A DNA stretch of 57,314 nucleotides from Thermoplasmata archaeon (GTDB lineage: Archaea; Thermoplasmatota; Thermoplasmata; Lutacidiplasmatales; UBA184), in the NCBI GenBank assembly GCA_022750115.1, contig JAKIWI010000004.1, positions 195,108-252,421 on the forward strand. Direction: 5' to 3'. A program made the translations under genes and the position numbers. The stretch's first letter is position 1; each line of letters starts with the position of its first letter. Positions 3,898-57,263 of this stretch are shown piece after piece. Under the pieces are notes generated by a model. The model was not told the origin of the DNA and searched no databases. It was given only the letters and a program-made list of their open reading frames with translations.

Positions 3898-5727
3898 TCA
3901 AGTCAGTGTCGGTGGAGCGAGGCCCGAGCGACTCCGGTGGCGTACCTGCACCGCGAGCCCGTGCTCCAGCTCCGTCATGAGCGGACCGGGAAGCTCCGCT
4001 TCGCCCACCGCGAGCAGGCGTTGGTTTCGGGTGAGGAGGACCGCGTCGCCGGCCCGAATCGCTGGGTCGGCGGACTCGACGCCGGGAACGAACAGGTCGC
4101 CGTTGAGCGGCACCTCGGCGCGCACCACGACCTGGAGAGTCCGGGCCGACAGGAGGCGTTCGCCCCCGGCCACCGTGAGTTGGAACAGCCCACGCTCATC
4201 CCGCCACGTGGCAAGGTCCGTCCCGCCGGGGTCCGTGACCCGCTGGAACCATGGGCGCCCATGGAGGCGGACGGGCGGCGCAAACAGACCGGCGGCAGCC
4301 GCGGGTCCGAACTGGAACGCGGCAATCGCCTCGAGCTCCTCGCGGACGATGGTCAGGGGTCCCCCGTCGGGAGCCCGAGTGTCGCCCAGAGCGTCCACGG
4401 CCGCCTCGTGCAGCGCCGAGAGAGACGTGGACGAGGTCGAGCGCCCGTCCGAGATCGTCCAGACCGGACGGAGCGACTCGGGAACCGCGGGGCGGAGGAA
4501 CGAATACTCACTCGGGTCGAGGTGAACGATGGCGCGCTCGTAGGCGCCGGTCACCAGCAACCGCTCGACCGACTCTCGGACCGTCCGTCGCTCCACCTCG
4601 TCCCAGTCGCCGGTGACGGGGATGTCGTAGTGCCGTGCGGGCGGCACATCCTCGAGCTCCCTCGGGACGACCCCAAGGGGCGAGGTGACCGAGACCACGT
4701 GGATCCGGGCGGCTCCCGTCAGATCCTCGAACGCGGAACGGAATCTTCGGTGCGAACGCGAGTTGCGGTACGGCTTGGTCTTGGAACACGGCACGAGGAG
4801 CAGAACGCGCTTCGAGGGCGGCGCCCGGTAGCGCGTCAGGAATCGCTCCTGGTACCGTCGGATCTCCGGGCGACGATGGGACTCGCGAAGAACGTAGGTG
4901 CGGATCCCGTGCGCGACGACCGGAGTTCGCTCGTCGAGGAGGTCGGTGAGATGTCCGTCGATGTAGCGCAACAGTTCCGCGAGCAGCGGCTCGGCGGCTA
5001 GTCGTCCTTCGCAACGCTCGCGGAGCAGCCCCGCTCCGATCGCCGTTCGGACGGCTCGCCGCTCCCGTTCGAGAAGCGCGAGCCCATGGACGACCCGGTC
5101 CGGGGCTCCGTCGGCACGACATCCGACGCAGTCGCAAGCCCGGTCGGCTGCCGTCGCCGCGGGCTCGGAGCGGCCCAGCTCGAGGTCGAAGTACGTCCCC
5201 TCGGTCGCCTGCCAGACGGTCTCGGTCGCGTCCAGCACATCGAAGCCGAGGTAGGTCAACAACGCGAGTCGGTGGGGTGTGGTCACCCGCGGGGCCCAGA
5301 CGAGCGGGCGCGCGCCGAGCTTGCGACGAAGCTCGTGCACCGCCCGGATCAACGGCTCCCCTTCGGCGAGGAGAACGCGTGCGTTCGCGAGGACGACGAG
5401 CTCGGGCCGCGCGGCCGCGAGAGACGTCCACTGGCCCTCGTCGAGCGGCCAATGGACGACCCAGGTGCCGTCTCCCGCGGACTGGGCGGATCCCGGGACT
5501 CCGGAGACCTCCGGCGCCGGGACCGCGTACTCGAGACGCAGCGACTGGGTTCCGTCGGTGATCTCGAGCGCGCGGTGGGCCGGTTCGGCGTCCGCGATCG
5601 ACCGAACCGAAGGCCGCCCGCCCGTCGACGGGCCGACGGACAGGACGGTCGGAACGCGGAATCGGAGAGGGCCGACGGTCGCGACGCCCTCGAGGATGAG
5701 TCCGTCCGAACGCTCGACGTGCCGCAG
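3898..5727 (-). CDS. arcS: Archaeosine synthase (ArcS, tRNA-guanine transglycosylase-like)
   Basis: ArcS acts on preQ0 at position 15 of tRNA on the way to archaeosine. Evidence: an N-terminal TGT-like region, a C-D-C-x-x-C cluster near residue 200, the family motif VPCSKTKPYRNSRSH near 313, and a C-terminal PUA RNA-binding domain from about 528. The start is unusual. In this frame there is no ATG, GTG or TTG between ATG 6018, which lies deep inside the upstream gene, and TTG about 5351, inside the conserved domain. A CTG at 5727 sits about 7 bases after a strong Shine-Dalgarno-like GGAGG and begins at the expected family N-terminus (RHVERSDGLILEG), so I place the start there; this is inference. 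About 609 residues, near the family length. tRNA-Val follows downstream. Confidence 0.85.
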   Translation of the reverse strand: MRHVERSDGLILEGVATVGPLRFRVPTVLSVGPSTGGRPSVRSIADAEPAHRALEITDGTQSLRLEYAVPAPEVSGVPGSAQSAGDGTWVVHWPLDEGQWTSLAAARPELVVLANARVLLAEGEPLIRAVHELRRKLGARPLVWAPRVTTPHRLALLTYLGFDVLDATETVWQATEGTYFDLELGRSEPAATAADRACDCVGCRADGAPDRVVHGLALLERERRAVRTAIGAGLLRERCEGRLAAEPLLAELLRYIDGHLTDLLDERTPVVAHGIRTYVLRESHRRPEIRRYQERFLTRYRAPPSKRVLLLVPCSKTKPYRNSRSHRRFRSAFEDLTGAARIHVVSVTSPLGVVPRELEDVPPARHYDIPVTGDWDEVERRTVRESVERLLVTGAYERAIVHLDPSEYSFLRPAVPESLRPVWTISDGRSTSSTSLSALHEAAVDALGDTRAPDGGPLTIVREELEAIAAFQFGPAAAAGLFAPPVRLHGRPWFQRVTDPGGTDLATWRDERGLFQLTVAGGERLLSARTLQVVVRAEVPLNGDLFVPGVESADPAIRAGDAVLLTRNQRLLAVGEAELPGPLMTELEHGLAVQVRHRSRSGLAPPTLT

Positions 5728-5764
5728 CGACCGCCCTCCTTCGAAGACCGGGGCGAGAGCGGAC

Positions 5765-6121
5765 CTAGGCTCCGTCCGTGGCCTTCGCGCCCTTCCTCGC
5801 CCGGCGAGGAGGCGCCGATGGACCGGGGAAGAACGATTGCCACTGCGCGACCAGGGCCTCGCGCCGTTCGGCGCCGGCCTCGGATCGTCCCCGTCGACCG
5901 ATGAGCGGGTCGTGGGTGTCGCGGACCTGCTGCAGGAACTCCCCCGGGCTTTCGCTCGCCTTCTCGAAGCCGTAGAGGATGAGCTGACGAAGGAAGCTCG
6001 AGCGTCCGCGCCAGCCAATCCGACGGCGAACAGCCGGGTTCAGGTGGCGCTTCGCCATCCGCCAGACGTCGTTCGTGGTCCGGTAGTCGCGCGCCGAGAG
6101 CCCGATCATCACCTGCGGCAT
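5765..6121 (-). CDS. Small basic conserved-looking protein, function unknown
   Basis: About 118 residues from ATG 6121 (MPQVMIGLSARDYRTTNDVW). The first 75 residues are well ordered and aromatic (FLRQLILYGFEKASESPGEF), followed by a basic tail (PPRRARKGAKA). I do not recognise it. An upstream ATG at 6196 exists, but the extra residues look like leader sequence. A TATA-like TCTAATCC lies about 32 bases before ATG 6121, so it probably has its own promoter 110 bases after the UbiA stop. It ends about 38 bases before the proposed ArcS start and may be cotranscribed with it. Confidence 0.6.
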   Translation of the reverse strand: MPQVMIGLSARDYRTTNDVWRMAKRHLNPAVRRRIGWRGRSSFLRQLILYGFEKASESPGEFLQQVRDTHDPLIGRRGRSEAGAERREALVAQWQSFFPGPSAPPRRARKGAKATDGA

Positions 6122-6230
6122 GGTCCAGGGGCGTGGCAGGTTCAGTGGCGGATTAGACTTCTCGGGCCGATCTCGCGCGGGCGACGAGTGCCCCAACCCG
6201 GCGCGCGAGCGGAGGCCCCGATTCCGGCCG

Positions 6231-7103
6231 TTACCCGAACCCCGACGGCAAAAACTCCGCGAGCGCGACGCCGACCAGGAAGATCGCTCCGAGCGCCGTG
6301 TGAAGGCGGAACGGCCAGCTCACGCGGTCGGGGGCTCGGGCCACGGCGACGTCGACGCCAACGGTCAGCACCGCCATGGCCGCCACGGCGAGGTAGAACG
6401 GCGCCGAAAGTCCGGCGAGCCGCCCGAACACCACGAACAGCACGATCGCCCCGGCGTGGAGGCAAGGAACGAGGGCGACCGAGAGCCGCTTCCCGAGGCG
6501 AACCGGGATCGAGGAAAGTCCCGCCGCCCGGTCCGCATCCACGTCTCCTAGAGAATGGATCGTCTCGAACGCCGTTCCCCAGGCGATCAGGGCGGCCATC
6601 GCGGCGAGCGCTTCGAGAGGAATCGCCCCACGGACGGCGATGTAGATGGCGACGGGAACGATCCCCTCGACGACACCGAGAAAGACGGTCGTGAGGGCGG
6701 TGAACCGCTTCGTGTAGCTGTAGCCGAACACCGCGAGCAGCGCGACGGGCGCCAGGACGAAGGCGAGTGGGTTGAGCAGGTAGGCCGCGAGGACCATCGC
6801 GACGGCGCTCGCGGTGACGACCGCCGCCGCGAAGGCGATGGAGTAGCGACCCGTGACGAGGGCCCGATTCCGGGTCCGGGGATTCTGGCGGTCGAACTCT
6901 CGGTCGACGATCCGATTGAACGCATGGCCCGCATTCCTCCCCGAGACGAACGCGACGATCGTCCAGAGGACGACCCAGACCGACGGGTGCCCGACGGACG
7001 CTGTCAGGAGGAAGGCGAGGGCGAACGGAAGGTTGAGCCCGAGATTCTGGATCTCGAGGAACCGGCCGATCCCGGGGGCCGGCTCGGGGTGGGAAGCGCT
7101 CAC
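6231..7103 (-). CDS. ubiA: UbiA-family prenyltransferase
   Basis: A membrane-embedded enzyme that transfers a polyprenyl chain to an aromatic acceptor. The two Asp-rich motifs of the family are visible: NRIVDREFD in the first half and DVDADRAAG in the second. About eight hydrophobic segments separate them. The start is GTG 7103, overlapping the UbiD stop as GTGA, which implies translational coupling; about 290 residues, normal for the family. Pairing with a UbiD decarboxylase, and a UbiE/MenG methyltransferase elsewhere in the window, points to menaquinone (possibly futalosine route) or a related quinone. The acceptor cannot be read from sequence. Confidence 0.9.
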   Translation of the reverse strand: MSASHPEPAPGIGRFLEIQNLGLNLPFALAFLLTASVGHPSVWVVLWTIVAFVSGRNAGHAFNRIVDREFDRQNPRTRNRALVTGRYSIAFAAAVVTASAVAMVLAAYLLNPLAFVLAPVALLAVFGYSYTKRFTALTTVFLGVVEGIVPVAIYIAVRGAIPLEALAAMAALIAWGTAFETIHSLGDVDADRAAGLSSIPVRLGKRLSVALVPCLHAGAIVLFVVFGRLAGLSAPFYLAVAAMAVLTVGVDVAVARAPDRVSWPFRLHTALGAIFLVGVALAEFLPSGFG

Positions 7104-8584
7104 TTCCCATTGGAGCGAGCGAACAGACGGGCCACGGTCGGGTCCGACTTCGCGAGCGCATCGACCCGGGCCACGACCGCCGGATCCATCCGGATCTCTT
7201 CCGGCCACGGCCTCGGGAACCCGTCGGAGGGCCCCTTCTTCGTCGCGTCGACGCCGACCTTCCCCCCGATGTTCGGTACCGCATTCGAGATCGACAGCTG
7301 GTCGACGGGTCCGGTCGCCAGCTCGAGGTCCCGGGCGGGATCGGCCTGGAGCCCGACGCGATAGAGGACCTCCCCCATGTCGTGGACGTCGACGTCCGCG
7401 TCGACCACGATGACGTAGCGGGAGAACATCAGCTGCCCAAGTCCCCAGAGCGCGTGCATCACCTTTCGAGGGTGCTCGGGAAACGACTTACGGATCGAGA
7501 CGACGACGACGTTGATGAACAGCCCCTCGACGGGCAGGTTCATGTCGACGATTTCGGGAAGCACGAGCCGGACGACCGGGAGGAACAGTCGCTCGACCGC
7601 CTTCCCGAGGACCGCGTCCTCGGTGGGCGGTTTCCCCGTGACGGTGGAGAGGTAGACTGGATTCTTTCGGCGGGTGATGTGCGTGACGTGGAAGACCGGG
7701 AACTCCTCCGGCGCGGAGTAGTACCCCGTGTGGTCGCCGAACGGACCTTCGATCTTCCGCTCCGATGGGTCGACGTACCCCTCGAGGACGATTTCGGCCT
7801 GCGCCGGGACCTCCAGGTCGACGGTTTCGGCGCGGACCAGCTCGAGCGGCTCGGAGCGCACGAAGCTCGCGAACACCCAGTTCGAGATCCCCTCCGGGAC
7901 CGGGGCGAGTCCGCTGAGGACCGTCGCAGGGTCGGCGCCGAGGACCGCGGCGACCGGCATCCGCTCCCCGCGGGCGGCCCACGCCCGGTAGTTCGCCGCC
8001 CCGACTCGATGCAGCTGCGCGTGGAAGCCGAGCGTGTCGCGGCCGTACTGCTGGAGTCGATAGATCCCGGTGTGCGACTCGCCGGTCTCAGGGTTCTTGG
8101 TCACGACGACCGGGAAGGTGATCGTGCGGCCTCCGTCCCCCGGCCAGCAACGAAGTAGGGGGAGGGAGTCGAGGTCGACGGCGTCCGTCGAGACCTCTTG
8201 GCACGGGGCGCTGGTGACCCGCTTCGGACCGAGGGAGCGCACGGTGTCGAGAAGGGCGAGCGTCCCGCTGATGTCCTTCAAGGCCGCCACAACCCCAGCG
8301 GGCGGACGGAGCCGCGACAGGGCGCCGATTCGTCCTGCGGCCTCGTCGATCGTGGCGGCCCCGAGTCCCAGGGCGATGCGGCGAGCCGAGCCCAGCACGT
8401 TCATCGCCACGGGCATCGTCGCGCCGCGGACGTTTTCGAACAGCAGCGCCGGCCCGTCGTTCGAGATCGTGCGGCGGGCGATCTCGGCGACCTCGAGGTC
8501 CCGGTTGACCTCGGAGCGAATCCGAACCAGGTCCCCTCGTTTCTCGAGTTCGGCGAGGAACTCGCCGAGCGACCGGAACGCCAT
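7100..8584 (-). CDS. ubiD: UbiD-family decarboxylase
   Basis: UbiD enzymes decarboxylate aromatic or alpha,beta-unsaturated acids using prenylated FMN. The whole-length family pattern is clear across 494 residues: the N-terminal MAFRSLGEFLAELEKRGDLV, the central ISNWVFASFVRSEPLELV and EGPFGDHTGYYS, and a C-terminal LWGLGQLMFSRYVIVVDADV plus SISNAVPNIGGKVGVDATKK. The Arg/Glu catalytic network is usually carried by these segments. Start ATG 8584 is 28 bases downstream of a TTAAATA box, so a leaderless message. It is the first gene of the ubiD-ubiA operon. No UbiX flavin prenyltransferase is in the window. Confidence 0.93.
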   Translation of the reverse strand: MAFRSLGEFLAELEKRGDLVRIRSEVNRDLEVAEIARRTISNDGPALLFENVRGATMPVAMNVLGSARRIALGLGAATIDEAAGRIGALSRLRPPAGVVAALKDISGTLALLDTVRSLGPKRVTSAPCQEVSTDAVDLDSLPLLRCWPGDGGRTITFPVVVTKNPETGESHTGIYRLQQYGRDTLGFHAQLHRVGAANYRAWAARGERMPVAAVLGADPATVLSGLAPVPEGISNWVFASFVRSEPLELVRAETVDLEVPAQAEIVLEGYVDPSERKIEGPFGDHTGYYSAPEEFPVFHVTHITRRKNPVYLSTVTGKPPTEDAVLGKAVERLFLPVVRLVLPEIVDMNLPVEGLFINVVVVSIRKSFPEHPRKVMHALWGLGQLMFSRYVIVVDADVDVHDMGEVLYRVGLQADPARDLELATGPVDQLSISNAVPNIGGKVGVDATKKGPSDGFPRPWPEEIRMDPAVVARVDALAKSDPTVARLFARSNGK

Positions 8585-9387: not shown

Positions 9388-9878
9388 CCGCGCGTTCGAG
9401 TCCCGCATCGAGACGCGGCCTGCAACGGGGCACCGCTCGCGCGGCGGGGCCGAAGGTGATCCTACAGCGCGTCGACGGCACTCCGGAGGTTCCAATTCCC
9501 GTGCGCGCGACGATCGGCTCGGCCGGCTTCGACCTCGCCAGCGCGGAGGAGGTTCGACTGGAGCGCGGGACCGTGAGCCTCGTGCGCACCGGTTGGAGGA
9601 TGCGCGCTCCCCCGGGAACGTTCCTCGAGGTCCGTCCGCGCAGCGGGCTCAGTAGTCGGGGGGTGCTGATGGTGAATGCCCCCGGCACGATCGACCGCGA
9701 CTACGCGGGGGAGGTGAAGGTCCCGATGACGTTCCTGTTCGAGGGAGGGTACTCGATCCACGTCGGCGACCGGATCGCGCAGGTTCGGCTCGTAGCGGAT
9801 CGGCCGGTGCGATTCGTCCTCGGAACGGTCTCTCCCACGACCTCGCGTTCCGGCGGGTTCGGCAGCACCGGCCGCTGA
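9384..9878 (+). CDS. dut: dUTP diphosphatase (trimeric dUTPase)
   Basis: Hydrolyses dUTP to dUMP and diphosphate, keeping uracil out of DNA. All five trimeric dUTPase motifs appear in order: GSAGFDL, RPRSGLSSRGV, GTIDRDYAGEVKV, GDRIAQVRL, and the C-terminal SRSGGFGSTGR arm that closes the active site. It has 164 residues, including a 22-residue basic N-terminal extension before the fold. Start GTG 9384 overlaps the regulator stop by four bases. The same fold includes dCTP deaminases, but the full motif 5 favours dUTPase. Confidence 0.93.
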   Translation: MTARSSPASRRGLQRGTARAAGPKVILQRVDGTPEVPIPVRATIGSAGFDLASAEEVRLERGTVSLVRTGWRMRAPPGTFLEVRPRSGLSSRGVLMVNAPGTIDRDYAGEVKVPMTFLFEGGYSIHVGDRIAQVRLVADRPVRFVLGTVSPTTSRSGGFGSTGR

Positions 9879-50040: not shown

Positions 50041-50131
50041 GGCGGGGCGTCGCAGGGCGACTCCTCGCCCCCTGGAAAGCGGCGGGATTGGCCCCGTGAC
50101 GCGACAGAGGTCCCCTCGGTTCCGAGCTTGC

Positions 50132-50140
50132 GTTTAATAG
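50132..50140 (+). promoter_or_regulatory. TATA box of the third STAND/TPR gene
   Basis: GTTTAATAG centred 28 bases before GTG 50164. It fixes the start at GTG 50164 and not at the in-frame codon 50128, which would lie upstream of the message. Confidence 0.65.
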
Positions 50141-50163
50141 TCGAGTTCACGCGTATTGCCGAC

Positions 50164-52545
50164 GTGTGGTCCCCCGCGGGCACGGTCGCGCCGCGGATCG
50201 GGCGGCCGGAGGCGTGGGCCGAACTTTTGGCCCGGCGCGACCGGGCCGCGACGGGGTCGGGCGGCCTGACCCTCCTCGAGGGGACGAGCGGCGTCGGAAA
50301 GTCCACGATCCTCGCGCACCTCGCGGCGGAGTCCCCCGCGCCCCGGTACCGCGTCGCCGCGGCGCGCGCATTCTGGGCGGACTATCTTCCCCCGTTCCAG
50401 TTGATCGAGGACGCGCTCCGCTCCCTCTCCGCCGGACCGTCGGAGACGTCCGCCCCATTCGCGAGCGCCAACGAGACCGCGCCTCTCGCCTTCCAACCGG
50501 CCGTCGAGCGGACCCGGGTCCGGTTCTCCGAGATGGACCCGCTGGCGTCGATGGACGAGGACGCACCGTCGGAGCTCGCCTCGGACCGGTTGCGGCTGTT
50601 CGGGTCGTGGGCCGAACCGATCCTCGCCGCCTCGCGAAAGGCGGTCGTCCTCGTGCTACTCGACGATGTCAATCGGGCCGACCAGGGGTCCCGCGCGTTC
50701 CTGCGCTACCTGCTGACTCGCATCGCCGACCGACCGATCTGGATTGTCGCGGCGTGCGACCCCCCGGGCGCCGCAGCGCCCGCGACGCCGGACCCAATGG
50801 CCCACCTCCGGCGAGCGGAGCACGTGGACCGCGTCGCGCTCCGGCCGCTGACCGAGGTCGAATCCGAGGAGTTCGTCCGGTGGGCGCTGCCGGGGAGTCC
50901 CCCGGTGGGGGCGGAGGTGCATCGGCTCCATGCGCGCTCCGGCGGGGTCCCCTCCCGGATCGTCCGTCTCCTCTCGCCTTCGGCGTCCCCGGCGACCCTC
51001 GAGGGGCCGTCGTCCCCGTCGACCGCTTCGGAAGGCGGAACACCGGGGGAACCGGAACCCGACGAGCTCCGGGTGCTCCACCTCGCCCTCCTGGCGGGTC
51101 CGGAGATCGAGGGACGGACGATCGCCGCCGCGGCGGGCCTCCCGGAGGGATCCACCTCGGAGCACCTCGCGCACCTCGCCTCCCAAGGCCTCCTCCACGC
51201 GACCGGACCCGGGCGGTTCGCCTTCGACCGGGAAGAGACGCGCGACAGCCTCGTGGCGCGGCTTCCGGCGGAGGCGGTTCAGCGCTACCACCGGCAAATC
51301 GCCGAGGCGCTGCTGAAGGACGGCTCGGGCGACGTTCCCTCCGTCTATCGGCTCGCCCGCCACACCTACCTCGGCGGCATGGACCGGCAAGCGGTCGAAT
51401 GGAACCAGCAGGCGGCGGCGTTCGCCGCCCGGTCGTTCCAGCCCGAGGTCGCCCTCTTGTACCTGCGCCTCGCCCTCGAGGCGCTCGGACGCTTGCCCTC
51501 GTCCGATCCGCGGACGGAGCTCCAGCTCCGTCTCGAGGTCGCCGTCCAACAGGCGCATGCCGGACCGGCCGAAGCGGCGGAGCAGCTCCTCGAGGAGATC
51601 CGCGACTCCGAACGGCTCTGGGGCGCCGCCGACCCCGTCGACCGCGCCCTGCTCGGGGTCTACCGGGCCCGGGTGTTGGCCGACCAGGGACGGTGGGACG
51701 AGGCGGAGCAGTCGCTGCAGGAGATGCCGGCCAACTTGCGCGGGCTCGACCGGGGGGACATTCCGCGCCTCGCGTACCGGCTGCAGGGGGAGATCCACTA
51801 CTACCGCGGGAACTACACCGAGGCCCTCGAGTCCCACGATGCGGCGCTCGCCGTGGCGCTGGAGGAAGGGGAACCTCGGGAGATCGCGGCCCAGCAGATC
51901 CGGCGAGCGACCGTCATCTCGATGATCCCGGGGCGCGAACCGGAGGCGCTCAGCGAGTATCGCGATGCGATCGACCGGCTCCTCGACCTCGGGGACTCGG
52001 CGGAGGCCGCGCTCGGGAGCTTGTGCCTCGGCGTCGAGCTGAGCGCGCTCGGACGGAGCGACGAGGCGCGGGCCGCCCTCGCCCAATGCGTCCAGTTCTC
52101 CGAGACCGCGAACGACCTCCGCCGCGCGGGGTGGGCGCACCTGAACCTGGCCGACCTCGAGTTCAGCCTCGGCCGCACCGTGGAAGCCGCGACGGAGGTT
52201 CGGCTGGCCAAGGTCCTGTTCGAGCGCGTCGAGGACGCTCTCGGGGCCGCGCGGGCGGCGCTGACCGAGGGCCGCGTCGCGCTCGCCCGGGGGAAGCTGG
52301 ACGAAGCGGAACGCGCCTTCACCGTCGCGGGAGAGATCTATGCCGGACGCCACCTCCTCCCCGACCAGATGGAGGTCGAGCTCCGAACCGCCGAGCTCGA
52401 GCTCGCGCGCCACGCGGTCGATCCGGCCCGCGAGCGGTTGGTGCGGCTCGTCCGGGACGGGCTCGCTCGCCTACGCCCGGACCTGATCGAGGAGGGGCGA
52501 CTCCTCGGCCAACGACTCGGACCGCCGGTCGTGGAGTTCGACTAG
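50164..52545 (+). CDS. STAND-type ATPase with winged helix and TPR array (third paralogue)
   Basis: About 793 residues with the same plan as the 29962-32400 protein: P-loop Walker A LLEGTSGVGKSTILAHL near residue 38, Walker B VVLVLLDDVNRAD near 165, a winged helix (ELRVLHLALLAGPEIEGRTI), the shared SYLG/TYLGG...N-Q-Q-A-A helix (HTYLGGMDRQAVEWNQQAAA) and TPR repeats to the end. No DNA-binding output domain is evident. A GTG start with leaderless spacing from GTTTAATAG. Its TAG stop overlaps that of the convergent MFS gene in CTAG. Confidence 0.82.
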   Translation: MWSPAGTVAPRIGRPEAWAELLARRDRAATGSGGLTLLEGTSGVGKSTILAHLAAESPAPRYRVAAARAFWADYLPPFQLIEDALRSLSAGPSETSAPFASANETAPLAFQPAVERTRVRFSEMDPLASMDEDAPSELASDRLRLFGSWAEPILAASRKAVVLVLLDDVNRADQGSRAFLRYLLTRIADRPIWIVAACDPPGAAAPATPDPMAHLRRAEHVDRVALRPLTEVESEEFVRWALPGSPPVGAEVHRLHARSGGVPSRIVRLLSPSASPATLEGPSSPSTASEGGTPGEPEPDELRVLHLALLAGPEIEGRTIAAAAGLPEGSTSEHLAHLASQGLLHATGPGRFAFDREETRDSLVARLPAEAVQRYHRQIAEALLKDGSGDVPSVYRLARHTYLGGMDRQAVEWNQQAAAFAARSFQPEVALLYLRLALEALGRLPSSDPRTELQLRLEVAVQQAHAGPAEAAEQLLEEIRDSERLWGAADPVDRALLGVYRARVLADQGRWDEAEQSLQEMPANLRGLDRGDIPRLAYRLQGEIHYYRGNYTEALESHDAALAVALEEGEPREIAAQQIRRATVISMIPGREPEALSEYRDAIDRLLDLGDSAEAALGSLCLGVELSALGRSDEARAALAQCVQFSETANDLRRAGWAHLNLADLEFSLGRTVEAATEVRLAKVLFERVEDALGAARAALTEGRVALARGKLDEAERAFTVAGEIYAGRHLLPDQMEVELRTAELELARHAVDPARERLVRLVRDGLARLRPDLIEEGRLLGQRLGPPVVEFD

Positions 52546-53858
52546 CGGGCGGAGCCTCGGTGTTCCGGCGCGGGGAGTCCGCCGTTCCCCCCCGAGGACG
52601 GACCCGAGCCGATCGACCGGAGCGACGGCGAAGCGACCGTCACGAGCCCCACGACCGCGAGCCCGAGGGCCGCGAGTGCGAATCCCGACCGCGCCCCGTA
52701 TGCCGCGATGAGGAGGCCCCCCGTCACGACCCCGACCGGCGCGACGACCCAGACGACGGTCTCCTGGAGCCCCAGGTAGCGGCCGAGCAACTCCGACGGG
52801 ACCACCCGTTGGACCAGCGTGATCGAGCCGGTCAGGACGATTCCCATCAGGATGCCCATCAGGGCGAAGGCGACCAGGGCGAACGGGAGGTTGGGGGCGA
52901 CGACGAGGAGCCCGAGGAGCCCCCCGCTCCCCACGAGCGACAGCCCGAGGACCAGGCCGAAGTGCTCGAGAAGGCGGAATCGCCCGGTGAGCAACGAGCC
53001 GACGAGGAATCCGGCGCTGTAGCCCCCGGCCAGGTAGCCGAAGAAGCTCGCGGGGAGCCCCAACGCCTGGACGGTGAACACGACGAGGTACGGGGAGAAC
53101 ATCGTCACAAAGAATCCGGCGGCGACCGCCACGGCGGTGAACCGCAGCAGCCACGCGTGACCTCGGAGGAAGCGGAGTCCATCGACGAAGTCGTCCCGGA
53201 AGCTCCGCGCCGCGGGAGGCGGCGCGGGGCGGGCGGCGGGCCGGCCCGCGATCAACGCGACCAGAATGGCCCCGACGGCGAAGACGAGGAAGTCCAGCGC
53301 AAAGCTCTCCGAGGTGCCGAGGGTGGCCAACAGTCCGGCGGCCACCGCGGCCCCCGCCGCCCAGGAGACCGACGAGAACGCCTGGGTCACGGCGTTGGCC
53401 CCCTCGATCCCGCCCGACGGGACCATCCCCGGTAGGAACACCGTGGTCACCAGCCCGAAGATCACGGTCGCCGTCTCAAACGCGAGGGCGAGCGCCAGGA
53501 CGATCCCGAGTTGAAATCCGAGGAGACGGAGCGTGAGGGGGACGAGGCCGAGGATGACGGCCTGAGCGACGGCGGTGACGACCAAGAGTCGCCGGCGGTT
53601 GTAGCGGTCGGCGAGGGCGCCGCCGAAGTAGCCGGCGGCGATCGGCGGGACCGTCTGCGCGAGGCCGACAGCGGCCACGGCGAGGGTCGAACCGGTCGCG
53701 GAGAAGACGAGCCAGACGAGCAGCACGTCGGCGAGGCCGAGCCCCGCCCAGCTCGCCGTGTTCCCGCCGAGAAAGTATCCGAGGTCCCGGGTCCAGGTCG
53801 GTCGGCCCGGCTGCAGAGCGGTCGGCGGGAGCGGCTCCCCCGGGACCATGGGCCTCAT
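52542..53858 (-). CDS. Major facilitator superfamily exporter
   Basis: 438 residues with about twelve membrane helices. The MFS loop 2-3 motif is GGALADRYNRRRLLVVTAVA. The overall wording (AVGLAQTVPPIAAGYFGGAL, LGRYLGLQETVVWVVAPVG) is that of the EntS/MFS_3 drug and siderophore exporters. ATG 53858 has a G-rich ribosome-site-like patch in front; ATG 53849 is possible. It follows the ThiF-fold gene by 73 bases on the same strand, so a product made by that enzyme is a candidate substrate. Confidence 0.88.
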   Translation of the reverse strand: MRPMVPGEPLPPTALQPGRPTWTRDLGYFLGGNTASWAGLGLADVLLVWLVFSATGSTLAVAAVGLAQTVPPIAAGYFGGALADRYNRRRLLVVTAVAQAVILGLVPLTLRLLGFQLGIVLALALAFETATVIFGLVTTVFLPGMVPSGGIEGANAVTQAFSSVSWAAGAAVAAGLLATLGTSESFALDFLVFAVGAILVALIAGRPAARPAPPPAARSFRDDFVDGLRFLRGHAWLLRFTAVAVAAGFFVTMFSPYLVVFTVQALGLPASFFGYLAGGYSAGFLVGSLLTGRFRLLEHFGLVLGLSLVGSGGLLGLLVVAPNLPFALVAFALMGILMGIVLTGSITLVQRVVPSELLGRYLGLQETVVWVVAPVGVVTGGLLIAAYGARSGFALAALGLAVVGLVTVASPSLRSIGSGPSSGGNGGLPAPEHRGSAR

Positions 53859-53931
53859 CAGGACGCCCCCCCGTCATGGACCCACCGTTGCACGCGGAGC
53901 GACCCCTCGGGTCGCCCATCGAGCGCGGTCG

Positions 53932-55041
53932 TTACGCTGCGCGGCGTCCGCGTCCGCACGCCGGACACTCCGGCCAGAACCGCGGTCGGACGACGTGCGT
54001 CTCGCCGGCGGTCCAGAGGTTCAGTTGCACCAGGACTCCGTCGTCCTGCGGCCGGAGCCCGGCGAGGAAGTAGAAGGCCCGGAGCGCGCCGAGATGGCCG
54101 GCGATCCCGGCCGTCGGGGCGATGACGGCGTTCCCGGCCGGTTCGGGGAACAGGGCCGTGCCCTCGAAGACCTTCTCGCGGCGCTGTCGCCGCTCCAGCT
54201 CGTGCTGGAGGCAACGGAGGCAGGGAGTCCGTCCCGGCACGAACAGCGCGATGGAGCACCGTGGACCGGAGTAGCTGTTGTCGAGCCACGGGGTCCCGTG
54301 CTTCACGGCGGCGTCGTTGGTCCAGAGGAGGATCTGGTGCGGGCGGTCGGCGCCGAGGACGAATAGGTCGCATCCCTCCAGGAGCGGTCCAAGTTCGCGC
54401 GGCGAAAGGACCTCCCGGCGCGCCTTCGTCACCCGAAGATGCGGGTTGATCGCCTTCAGGTGCTCCGCGGCCGCATCGACTTTCCACCGTCCGACGTCGC
54501 TCGACCGGTAGAGGGTCTGGCGGTTCAGGTTCGACACTTCCACCCGGTCGGAGTCGAGGAGGCGGAGGTGGCCGACCCCCGCCGCCGCCAAGCTCACCGC
54601 GGTCGCCGAACCGATGGCTCCCACCCCGAGGATCGTGACGCGGGCGGCCCGGAGACGCCGCTGGAGTTCGACCGCGGAAACGGACGATCCGAGCGTGACG
54701 AGTGAGAAGAAATCGAGATTCCGGGAATACCGGTCGGCCTCTGCGTCGGGCAAACCGACGCCCGAGGAACCGCCGCCCTCTTCGATCACTCCCAGGCGCT
54801 CGAGCCGAGCGACGGCGCGCCGGGTGGTCCGCTCATCCCAGCCCGGGTGGAATCTCCGAACACCCCTCGAGAGGGCGGGCAGATCCCTCGTTCCGTCCAT
54901 CAGGCGGAGGAGGCGCCAGAGCGCGTCCGACCCGTCGGATGGGATCCGCTGTCCGAGGCCGAACACGTCCCGCGCCAGGAGGATGTCGCCGTTCGCGAGC
55001 CGGAAGGGACTCAGCGAGCGTTTGGTTCGAGGACGAAGCAC
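53932..55041 (-). CDS. MccB-like ThiF-fold adenylating enzyme with N-terminal peptide-clamp-like domain
   Basis: 369 residues. Residues 10-88 form a small helical/winged domain (FRLANGDILLARDVFGLG, LWRLLRLMDGTRDLPALSRG) resembling the PqqD/RRE peptide-binding module. From 105 it is an E1-like enzyme: RYSRNLDFF, Rossmann GVGAIGSA (139-146), LLDSDRVE, Arg finger NLNRQTLY, then Cys pairs C274/C277 (PCLRC) and C359/C362 (CPAC) for zinc. Several segments (RYSRN, NLNRQ, the Asp-x-Pro and VPGRTPC regions) recall MccB of microcin C synthesis more than MoeB or ThiF. It probably adenylates a peptide C-terminus. GTG 55041 is leaderless from TTGAATTAGG. It precedes the MFS gene. Confidence 0.82.
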   Translation of the reverse strand: MLRPRTKRSLSPFRLANGDILLARDVFGLGQRIPSDGSDALWRLLRLMDGTRDLPALSRGVRRFHPGWDERTTRRAVARLERLGVIEEGGGSSGVGLPDAEADRYSRNLDFFSLVTLGSSVSAVELQRRLRAARVTILGVGAIGSATAVSLAAAGVGHLRLLDSDRVEVSNLNRQTLYRSSDVGRWKVDAAAEHLKAINPHLRVTKARREVLSPRELGPLLEGCDLFVLGADRPHQILLWTNDAAVKHGTPWLDNSYSGPRCSIALFVPGRTPCLRCLQHELERRQRREKVFEGTALFPEPAGNAVIAPTAGIAGHLGALRAFYFLAGLRPQDDGVLVQLNLWTAGETHVVRPRFWPECPACGRGRRAA

Positions 55042-55074: not shown

Positions 55075-55301
55075 CCCCCGGCCCCGCCCGCCCCTGGGGC
55101 GGCCGAGAGCGGGGGGAGCGTTTCGGTCCCAGGCCGGGACAATCGGAAGACCTGAGACCGAAGGAGGCGATCGGGGCGACGGCCTACCGACGGACGGGGG
55201 TCGGGACCGGGCGCGTTTGGGCCTTCGTCAACGGCTGCAGTCGAATCCCGGCGTTCTGCTTCGTGCTCATGTTTGCCTGCACCCCCGTTCTTCGAGGGCA
55301 T
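55071..55301 (-). CDS. Short leaderless ORF, candidate substrate peptide
   Basis: 76 residues from ATG 55301 (MPSKNGGAGKHEHEAERRDS), ending in a Gly/Ala-rich stretch (LSAAPGAGGAGG). CGTTTAAGTAG is centred 27 bases upstream, exactly where a leaderless message from it would begin, which is the main support. The composition is not strongly protein-like and no family is recognised. A 28-residue ORF in another frame (55184-55270, MSTKQNAGIRLQPLTKAQTR..., ending VRR) lies inside it and could be the true product instead. It ends 29 bases before the MccB-like gene. Confidence 0.35.
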   Translation of the reverse strand: MPSKNGGAGKHEHEAERRDSTAAVDEGPNAPGPDPRPSVGRRPDRLLRSQVFRLSRPGTETLPPLSAAPGAGGAGG

Positions 55302-55323: not shown

Positions 55324-55332
55324 TACTTAAAC
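55324..55332 (-). promoter_or_regulatory. TATA box of the short ORF
   Basis: GTTTAAGTA on the minus strand, centred 27 bases before ATG 55301. It lies in a 157-base gap between the acetyltransferase stop and the short ORF. Confidence 0.6.
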
Positions 55333-55458: not shown

Positions 55459-56151
55459 TCATCCCGCGGTTCCGCTCGGCTCCGCACGCTTCGGCCGATT
55501 GGGGCGGATCCTGCGGGCGACGACCCACCGATGCATCGCGATCTTGCGGGACCGGACGAATCCCGCCTTCTCGAACATCCCAAGGGTCCCACTGCAGAGG
55601 AACGAACGCGAGACCTTCCGGCCCGCCACGTCCTCGGGGTACGCCTCGACCGTCCCCCCTCCGAGTCGGGCGATCTCCCCGAGTGCCTCGCGAAGGGCGA
55701 ACGTGGCGATCCCGTCCCCCCGGCGCTCCCGGTCGATGAAGAAGCAGGTGATGCGCCAATCCGGAAGGTCGCTGACGCCCTCTTCGTACGCGGTGCGGCT
55801 CCGAATGTTCGGAAGTTCCCCGGTGGGACCGAACTGGCACCAACCGACGGCCGTCGGACCGTCGAAGACGAGGGCCGCATGAGCCCGCCCTTCCCGGACG
55901 CGCGTCTCCTTCATCGCTCGGTACTCGGCGGGAGTGCGCTTCCCTTCCCCCGGCCCGAGATGGAATGAGATGCACCAGCACCCGCCAAAGATTCCGTTGT
56001 GCTTCTCGACGAGTCGCGCGAACGCGGGCCAGGTGTCCGGGGCCAGCGGTTTGGAGGTCAGGGCGTGAGCTCGACCTGGGCCCAGACGCTTGGGTGGCCG
56101 CGGCGGAGCACCTCTCCCGGCGGCGGGAGGCGCGCTCGAGTTACCGGCCAT
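55459..56151 (-). CDS. GNAT-family N-acetyltransferase
   Basis: 230 residues. Residues 1-30 are Pro/Arg-rich, then the GNAT core: FGGCWCISFHLGPGEGKRTP, ALVFDGPTAVGWCQFGP, WRITCFFIDRERRGDGIATF (acetyl-CoA binding, with the R-x-x-G-x-A/G pattern), and C-terminal GTLGMFEKAGFVRSR. The CWC-x-x-FH wording belongs to a broad GNAT group of unknown substrate. ATG 56151 follows the hydrolase stop by 18 bases, so these two are probably one transcript. Confidence 0.82.
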   Translation of the reverse strand: MAGNSSAPPAAGRGAPPRPPKRLGPGRAHALTSKPLAPDTWPAFARLVEKHNGIFGGCWCISFHLGPGEGKRTPAEYRAMKETRVREGRAHAALVFDGPTAVGWCQFGPTGELPNIRSRTAYEEGVSDLPDWRITCFFIDRERRGDGIATFALREALGEIARLGGGTVEAYPEDVAGRKVSRSFLCSGTLGMFEKAGFVRSRKIAMHRWVVARRIRPNRPKRAEPSGTAG

Positions 56152-56168
56152 GGCGAAACCCTCCGGGA

Positions 56169-57011
56169 CTATGGGCGAAGGTCCGGGAGACTCTCGACGA
56201 AGCCATGGAGCGCGGTGTCGAAGACGTCCGGTCGGGAAAGGTTGAGCAGGTGGTCCGCACCCGGGACGAGCTGCACTTGGGCACCGGCGATTCCCCGCCC
56301 TAGGAAGTTGGCGAGGTGCGGCATCGCTGGGTTGTCTCGGTCTCCGACCAGGATCCGGGTCGGGACCCGAATCTCACCGAGCCGAGCGGCCGCGGGCGCC
56401 CCGTCCCTTGTTTCGTGTCGGCCGGAACTCTCCTCGAAGATCTCTTTCGCATTCTCCCGGACCATCGTCCGGAATAGTTCTAGTGCGGACCCCGCGAGCG
56501 ACGAGGCCCACAGCTGCCGGAGGTGCTCGGTCGCTCCCTCGAGATCTCGGGCGGCCCAGGCGTCGGCCGCCGCCTTGGAGAGCCGTTCGTCGCGTTCGAA
56601 CGTCGCTTTCCCGCCAGGGACGTGGTCGTAGTCCATGCCCGAGTAGGCCGGGGCGACGAGAAGCAACGCCCCCACACGTTCCGGGTCCGCGAGGCTCAGG
56701 TCGATGGCGACCTTCCCCCCCATGCTGGGACCGACGATCAGCGGACGGGCCATGTCAAGGTGGTCGAGCAAGGCGACGAGGTCCCGCACGGGCGAATACG
56801 CGGATGTCGCGGGTGCGGAGCCACCGTACCCTCGGAAGTCGTAGCGCGCGACGCGATGGTCGCGCGCCAAGTGCGAGAACTCGCGATCCCACATGCGTCG
56901 GTCGGCGATCCCCTCGTGGAGGAGGACGATCGGCAGCCCCCGACCGGCGACTTCGTAGGTGAGCCGGCCGCCGGCGACATCCAAGCTCTGTGCGGGGAGA
57001 TGATCGCTCAT
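56169..57011 (-). CDS. Alpha/beta-hydrolase-fold protein
   Basis: 280 residues. The catalytic triad can be placed: nucleophile Ser in IVGPSMGGKVAID (G-x-S-x-G), Asp in ILVGDRDNPAMP, His in VPGADHLLNLS. IVLLHEGIADRRMWDREF carries the oxyanion loop and ARYDFRGYGGS the strand that follows. The substrate is unknown; enol-lactonase or esterase types are similar. ATG 57011 is 27 bases after TTTATGAA, so leaderless; the longer frame starting 57113 adds poor sequence. First gene of the operon with the GNAT. Confidence 0.87.
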   Translation of the reverse strand: MSDHLPAQSLDVAGGRLTYEVAGRGLPIVLLHEGIADRRMWDREFSHLARDHRVARYDFRGYGGSAPATSAYSPVRDLVALLDHLDMARPLIVGPSMGGKVAIDLSLADPERVGALLLVAPAYSGMDYDHVPGGKATFERDERLSKAAADAWAARDLEGATEHLRQLWASSLAGSALELFRTMVRENAKEIFEESSGRHETRDGAPAAARLGEIRVPTRILVGDRDNPAMPHLANFLGRGIAGAQVQLVPGADHLLNLSRPDVFDTALHGFVESLPDLRP

Positions 57012-57263
57012 CGGCGGGAGAGCCGCCCCGGGGTTCATAAACGAACCCGCGAGAGGGTGGAACGGTTCGAGATCGAGCTTCCCGCATCCGTCATCGCGGA
57101 CCCGTTCGAACATCCTGGCAGGGGTTCCACGAACCGGCCTGCCACGGCGAACTTGCTCGACGCACGGTGGGTGGGTGCCGGGAAGCTAACGGCGCGCCCG
57201 AGAACGTCGTGCGACCGGCGAAAAGCCAATACCCGCCCGAAGTTGGTCGGCGACGTCCCCGAT

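Follow-up and report, generated by a model that had tools for sequence, protein, structure and literature searches.

A candidate RiPP cassette of the ThiF-like adenylyltransferase kind in a Thermoplasmata soil archaeon

ThiF-like adenylyltransferases (TLATs) that act on ribosomally synthesized and post-translationally modified peptides (RiPPs) are already known as a kind. In the systems described, a carboxylate of the precursor peptide is adenylated and then attacked by a nucleophile (PMC12150305; PMC12250964). MccB of the microcin C pathway installs its linkage at the C-terminal Asn of the precursor (PMC12150305); for EnfB, both imide formation and amidation have been reported (PMC12250964). 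The TLAT RiPPs described in these texts are bacterial, and the global survey of PMC12150305 covered bacterial RefSeq only. Here we describe a locus from a Thermoplasmata archaeon (assembly GCA_022750115.1, contig JAKIWI010000004.1), contained in a stretch of 57,314 nucleotides that we call the window, in which a short open reading frame (ORF) precedes a ThiF-fold gene and a major facilitator superfamily (MFS) gene. Judging from its sequence, we read this locus as a RiPP cassette of the TLAT kind, with a probability of about 75%.

An earlier note on this DNA had pointed to the ThiF-fold gene (53932..55041, minus strand) and the MFS gene (52542..53858, minus strand) and had suggested an archaeal modified-peptide system. 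Both genes lie where it placed them and match Pfam (ThiF, 6.6e-49; MFS_1, 8.8e-22), and the suggestion has gained a linked conserved candidate precursor, a defined enzyme clade and a structural model. The precursor was missing from that note; its candidate gene lies at 55184-55270 on the minus strand.

Precursor peptide and RRE-fused ThiF enzyme

The candidate precursor gene (55184..55270, minus strand) is a conserved 28-codon ORF upstream of ThiF that encodes MSTKQNAGIRLQPLTKAQTRPVPTPVRR. An ATG-started ORF of 27, 28 or 31 codons occupies this site in all eight close archaeal orthologs, with 142-154 nt between its stop and the ThiF start used. Among the first four of these ORFs to be compared, length was constant at 28 and third codon positions were the most variable (21 of 29 columns, versus 17 and 10 for the other positions). 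All eight peptides contain an [IV]R[VLI] stretch and end in [ST]-P-x-R-[R/K/M], so that a Ser or Thr at position -5, followed by Pro, is kept throughout; it is the sole Ser/Thr in the peptides of G253 and G257 (G and L numbers are our labels for genomes and loci, G000 being the window genome). Trp is absent from all eight, Cys from four, and none ends in Asn. Asp or Glu occurs in the peptides of G010, G039 and G321 and is absent from the window peptide and the four others. When amino-acid identity was tested by permutation, six of the ten pairs among the five 28-codon members had P <=0.05.

In 101 genomes (the window genome and 100 relatives), a profile of the peptide reached E <1e-15 in the four cassette genomes only; the best match elsewhere (E 5.6e-5, G099, L072), considered as a solo peptide copy, was read as chance. 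No NCBIfam match was found for six of the peptides and no Pfam match for three. A TATA-like box, TTTAAGTA (55324..55331, minus strand), lies 61 nt ahead of the peptide's start codon as a match to the consensus only; in five of the eight close orthologs, a loose pattern places such a box at a distance of 59-62 nt.

The 369-residue product of the ThiF-fold gene is predicted to consist of a peptide-binding domain (residues ~1-90) and an adenylating domain (~95-365). Its nearest solved sequences are MccB (4.6e-26), MoeB (6.8e-23) and PaaA (9e-23), the match to PaaA taking in the N-terminal part. An AlphaFold2 model built from a deeper alignment (six close sequences alone gave the catalytic domain a pLDDT of 46.0) aligned with MccB over residues 2-365 and with PaaA over 7-356, and with MoeB and ThiF from about residue 95 only; MccB was the top full-length structural match. 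In this model, the N-terminal region adopts an MccB/PaaA-type fold resembling a RiPP recognition element (RRE), as the earlier note had supposed, and Pfam PqqD matched the region weakly, in three of 16 sequences. R174, K187 and D232 are invariant across the 16 sequences and, via the MccB alignment, are taken to correspond to the Arg, Lys and Asp described in EnfB (PMC12250964).

Three features of a TLAT system are found together: a ThiF/E1 catalytic domain with the ATP-site Arg, Lys and Asp intact, an N-terminal domain modeled as an RRE, and a linked short candidate precursor, present in all eight close orthologs and as a tandem array in G187. In a tree of ThiF-fold proteins, the window enzyme falls in a single 35-member clade (support 98/97) made up of proteins from archaea and actinobacteria. 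This clade is separate from 12 MoeB-type rows (100/97), one of the checks that had been proposed for the locus, and lies outside the MccB branch, where branches are long.

Relatives and genomic neighbors

Some ThiF-family match is present in 82 of the 101 genomes, and a close ortholog of the window enzyme in only four. Among other genomes of the genus, 49 of 60 have some ThiF-family match, and six of those sampled fell in the MoeB clade. When 400 genomes of the class were screened, 11 carried the enzyme at E <=1e-40, namely the eight with close orthologs, G220, G187 (two copies) and G262. G187, a member of another family, has three ORFs in tandem that share one and the same 18-residue leader, MAKKIAISIRPAEKWETT, and differ in their tails; ThiF comes next, and after it an M50 protease gene (L096, G187:C13, about 7420-7950). 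No such peptide was found beside the second ThiF copy of G187 nor in G262. In G220, a more distant archaeal relative, the order is ThiF, M50, MFS and then the peptide, an arrangement intermediate between M50-type and MFS-type loci.

A plasmid search returned full-length actinobacterial ThiF homologs with 34-39% identity. Short ORFs with a stretch similar to that of the archaeal peptides, for example VKIRKLEKIETT and ISIRRLDKKETT, lie upstream in three of the four plasmid homologs and downstream in the fourth. Of 394 genomes from the class of G407, 18 have the enzyme at E <=1e-50, in 27 places, 20 of which are covered by the motif counts. The leader motif was present in 14 of these 20 loci, 13 by a first pattern that had been set on earlier loci and widened by one letter, with a second pattern adding the fourteenth. 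A strict form of the motif occurred in 20 of 34 family loci and was absent both from 85 loci outside the family (480 kb) and from the reversed family loci.

Several individual loci merit description. On a Streptomyces plasmid (L099, about 9440-9690), ThiF and M50 are followed downstream by two precursors in tandem, which have the leader MEKIEIRxLDxLETTA and different tails. In a Mycobacterium-labeled metagenome-assembled genome (MAG; L040, 5815-7638), the ThiF enzyme is joined to an apparent S-adenosylmethionine methyltransferase domain, which recalls the MccB-carboxymethyltransferase fusions of cytidine-type microcin C (PMC12250964). In another Thermoplasmatota lineage (G1102; L178, G1102:C2, about 5430-8270), a Cys-rich candidate peptide, MRQAFSVEVLEDRTAPLSMLTVAACCCSDCC, accompanies a ThiF-family gene, and the ORF after that gene has a PqqD-like start as read from its sequence. 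Searches of viruses gave no relative by a close profile and five distant ones by a broad profile, and none of 25 phage records reached 80% query coverage. In the class of G408, whose locus is labeled Nitrososphaeraceae, none of 300 genomes matched at 1e-50 in a search run without a positive control.

The MFS gene (52542..53858, minus strand) encodes a 438-residue transporter similar to efflux pumps and a putative exporter of the product; it lies 73 bp from the ThiF-fold gene. Conservation of this pair, also proposed earlier as a check, is borne out: MFS adjoins ThiF in seven of seven close orthologs whose contig reaches that far (the G039 gene is partial at a contig end and G321 is outside the count). 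In G220, MFS lies one gene further on. At a 1e-10 cutoff, eight of the 34 family loci match the window MFS, and none of the clade's actinobacterial loci does. A single BLASTP comparison with MccC gave E 0.20, no significant similarity. Two further loci have an MFS protein weakly like that of the window: a Lactiplantibacillus plantarum plasmid with a ThiF-MFS pair between transposase genes (L165, 1957-4415; E 4e-8), and L154 (G577), where an actinobacterial ThiF outside the clade is followed by the MFS gene (E 1.2e-12).

Convergent to the MFS gene is a STAND-like AAA_16/TPR gene (50128..52545, plus strand; AAA_16 at 2.3e-15, plus TPRs). It adjoins the cassette in six of six close-ortholog loci whose contig reaches that far, and a close version (53-64% identity, >800 bits) is present in exactly those four of the 101 genomes in which the ThiF ortholog occurs; all other matches in the 101 are paralogs at <=390 bits. 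We regard its product as a candidate sensor, regulator or immunity partner. The BTAD regulator gene upstream of the ThiF-family gene on a Streptomyces plasmid (L169) is a possible parallel.

M50 genes were sought with a profile built from seven proteins that share HExxH and a distal Asp, all of which match Pfam M50 at E <=0.1, some weakly. By this profile, M50 is present in 19 of the 34 family loci, four archaeal and 15 of 24 actinobacterial; clustering of neighbors with a crude gene caller had placed ThiF in 31 of 34 and M50 in 15. An M50 leader protease in the close orthologs was considered and rejected, as matches in G000, G010 and G321 were weak (E about 1e-5 to 1e-4). A whole-genome M50 search found none at 0.01 in G025, G039, G253 and G257, and a match of 1.3e-165 in G220.

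With a GC content of 0.67-0.73, the cassette genes are in keeping with the window (0.70). The window has an archaeal character: directly before the AAA/TPR gene, the plus strand encodes Rpb7-like, DUF359, ribosomal S24e and ribosomal S27a proteins. Thermoplasmata MAGs harbor close relatives of the cassette; three of these MAGs, AcS1-3, AcS13-54 and AcS5-107, are listed as Ca. Lutacidiplasmatales from pine forest (PMC9287336). Upstream of the peptide ORF, on the same strand as ThiF, lie a GNAT-like gene (55459-56151) and an alpha/beta-hydrolase gene (56169-57113). Both are outside the shared unit; the genes at 55459-57113 are not common to the other cassette loci compared, except for a 28% identical protein in G010. 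Because the upstream flanks of G000 and G010 are unshared save for that one weak match, the cassette unit looks portable.

Proposed chemistry and rival readings

In the mechanism that we propose, the 28-residue precursor would be made, probably from its own promoter, and its leader part, [IV]R[VLI] plus the following residues, would be bound by the RRE-like domain of the ThiF protein. The catalytic domain would then use ATP and Mg to adenylate the C-terminal carboxylate, the only candidate for adenylation in the window peptide and in four of the other seven, which have no Asp or Glu. The acyl-adenylate would be captured within the peptide. As Trp is missing from every peptide and Cys from half of them, an indolylamide and a thiolactone are excluded as the shared reaction. 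Our best guess at the nucleophile is the Ser/Thr at position -5. Its conservation, and its standing as the only Ser/Thr in two of the peptides, suggest a five-residue macrolactone of [ST]-P-x-R-[R/K]. Imide formation or amidation, the outcomes reported for EnfB, are possible alternatives for the archaeal peptide.

The MFS protein would export the product, and the AAA/TPR protein would sense it or protect against it. Bacterial peptide signaling uses TPR receptors, and by analogy the locus could be an archaeal peptide-pheromone cassette for quorum sensing, in which the ThiF enzyme closes a five-residue lactone at the C-terminus of the 28-residue peptide, the MFS protein exports it and the AAA/TPR STAND protein is its cytosolic receptor. 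We consider this extension of the scheme fairly unlikely.

Several observations weigh against the reading of the locus as a TLAT RiPP cassette, or against parts of it. The permutation test on its own gives modest support, as its pairs are non-independent, and the peptide of one ortholog ends in Met instead of Lys or Arg. The cyclisation site is inferred from the residues kept in the peptides. The first leader pattern had two matches in 214 kb of reversed sequence, and scans found no peptide in six of the 20 actinobacterial loci. Some of the loci counted with the strict motif had also served to tune it, and it misses the close archaeal peptides, whose version (IR[VLI]...) is derived; the grounds for kinship between the archaeal and actinobacterial peptides are therefore their position, the IR stretch and the enzyme. 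Because the close orthologs have no M50 protease, leader removal is either unexplained or absent. In the window genome (90% complete), the cassette gene is the sole full-length ThiF-family gene, a second match being weak and 80 residues long, so redundancy does not argue against a housekeeping role.

Among other explanations, the 28-codon ORF could serve a drug-efflux MFS gene as its regulatory leader (attenuator or arrest peptide), with the ThiF enzyme acting on a different target. The resemblance of the MFS protein to efflux pumps would fit, as would the GC-rich spacer between the ORF and ThiF, which is able to fold. However, folding z values of this spacer range from -3.0 to +0.3 and are <=-2 in just three of the eight loci, so a terminator or attenuator there is unconvincing. 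Peptide kin lie both upstream and downstream of ThiF and form tandem arrays with a constant leader and variable tails, and only eight of the 34 family loci have a match to the window MFS. We hold this explanation to be quite unlikely.

A microcin C-type system would couple AMP to the C-terminus of the peptide through an N-P bond and export a Trojan-horse antibiotic through the MFS protein. The structural match to MccB and the precursor-ThiF-MFS gene order, the same as in the Escherichia coli locus, speak for it. Against it, none of the eight precursors has the C-terminal Asn on which the MccB linkage is placed (PMC12150305), the one BLASTP comparison showed no significant similarity of the MFS protein to MccC, and the enzyme lies outside the MccB branch, though branches there are long. 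MccB-like, the earlier note's term for the enzyme, is unsupported as a family label: we reject membership of the MccB family because of how the precursors end, with weaker support from the MFS comparison and from the tree. Microcin C serves as a fair analogy without being the family of this locus, and we judge a system of this type distinctly unlikely.

Activation of a side chain, as in pantocin (PaaA) or GrcB, would have a Glu or Asp of the precursor adenylated and cross-linked. PaaA is a near full-length structural match and three of the peptides have an Asp or Glu, but the window peptide and four other orthologs have neither, which makes this very improbable as the chemistry of the locus. 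A YcaO partner of the azoline-forming TOMM kind was also rejected, PF02624 being present in none of the four cassette genomes (83-95% complete) and in five of 14 controls. An E1/MoeB/UbaA-type enzyme serving a sulfur carrier or ubiquitin-like protein is the least credible alternative, given the separation from MoeB in the tree, a close ortholog in 4 of 101 genomes against a ThiF-family match in 49 of 60 others of the genus, the extra peptide-binding domain and the linked precursor.

Comparison with known systems

An archaeal TLAT RiPP, the present precursor family and the archaeal-actinobacterial clade were not found in searches of the open PMC library. The available text of PMC12250964 has no mention of archaea, actinobacteria, Streptomyces, M50, MFS or Thermoplasm-, and the words 'biosynthetic' and 'antibiotic' are absent from the available main text of PMC9287336 on the order. 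The actinobacterial loci may lie within the bacterial network of PMC12150305. If the locus is a TLAT RiPP cassette, a precursor short enough for synthesis and with a single activatable carboxylate makes the chemistry directly testable in a compact archaeal version. That Thermoplasmatota, the phylum of the Thermoplasmata, and Actinobacteria share one clade of the enzyme and have related forms of a leader motif points to cross-domain exchange or common origin of a peptide-modifying system, and the linked AAA/TPR gene offers a testable case of peptide signaling or competition among acidic-soil archaea.

Microcin C (mccA-mccB-mccC) resembles the cassette in its short precursor (in E. coli the peptide MRTGNAN, which we take to be MccA), its RRE-fused ThiF enzyme and its MFS gene, in identical order; it differs in the Asn that ends its precursor, in an exporter, MccC, to which the window MFS shows no significant similarity, and in the clade of its enzyme. 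The enterofaecin (EnfB) and indolylamide (IndF) systems adenylate the C-terminal carboxylate with ATP and capture it intramolecularly, as would the archaeal enzyme, and the EnfB precursor has a (V/I)RKA motif in its leader (PMC12250964, PMC12150305). Those systems are bacterial and their peptides end in WIVI or NWYFI, whereas the archaeal ones end in [ST]P.R and have no Trp. Pantocin A (PaaA) has the same RRE-fused ThiF fold along almost all of the protein; its chemistry proceeds through a Glu side chain, with Glu residues in the core, whereas five of the eight archaeal peptides, including that of the window, have no Asp or Glu.

The RRE-ThiF loci of actinobacteria whose peptides are of the 'IRRLDKIETT' type have an enzyme of the same clade and a related leader motif; they differ in that 15 of 24 have M50 and none in the clade matches the window MFS at 1e-10, and their peptides often have Ser/Asn/Gly-rich tails. 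To our knowledge, agr-type autoinducing peptides are unrelated in sequence to the archaeal peptides. They are five-residue thiolactones made with AgrB and not with a ThiF enzyme (PMC12250964), and the archaeal product would resemble them in its five-residue ring if our guess at the cyclisation is right.

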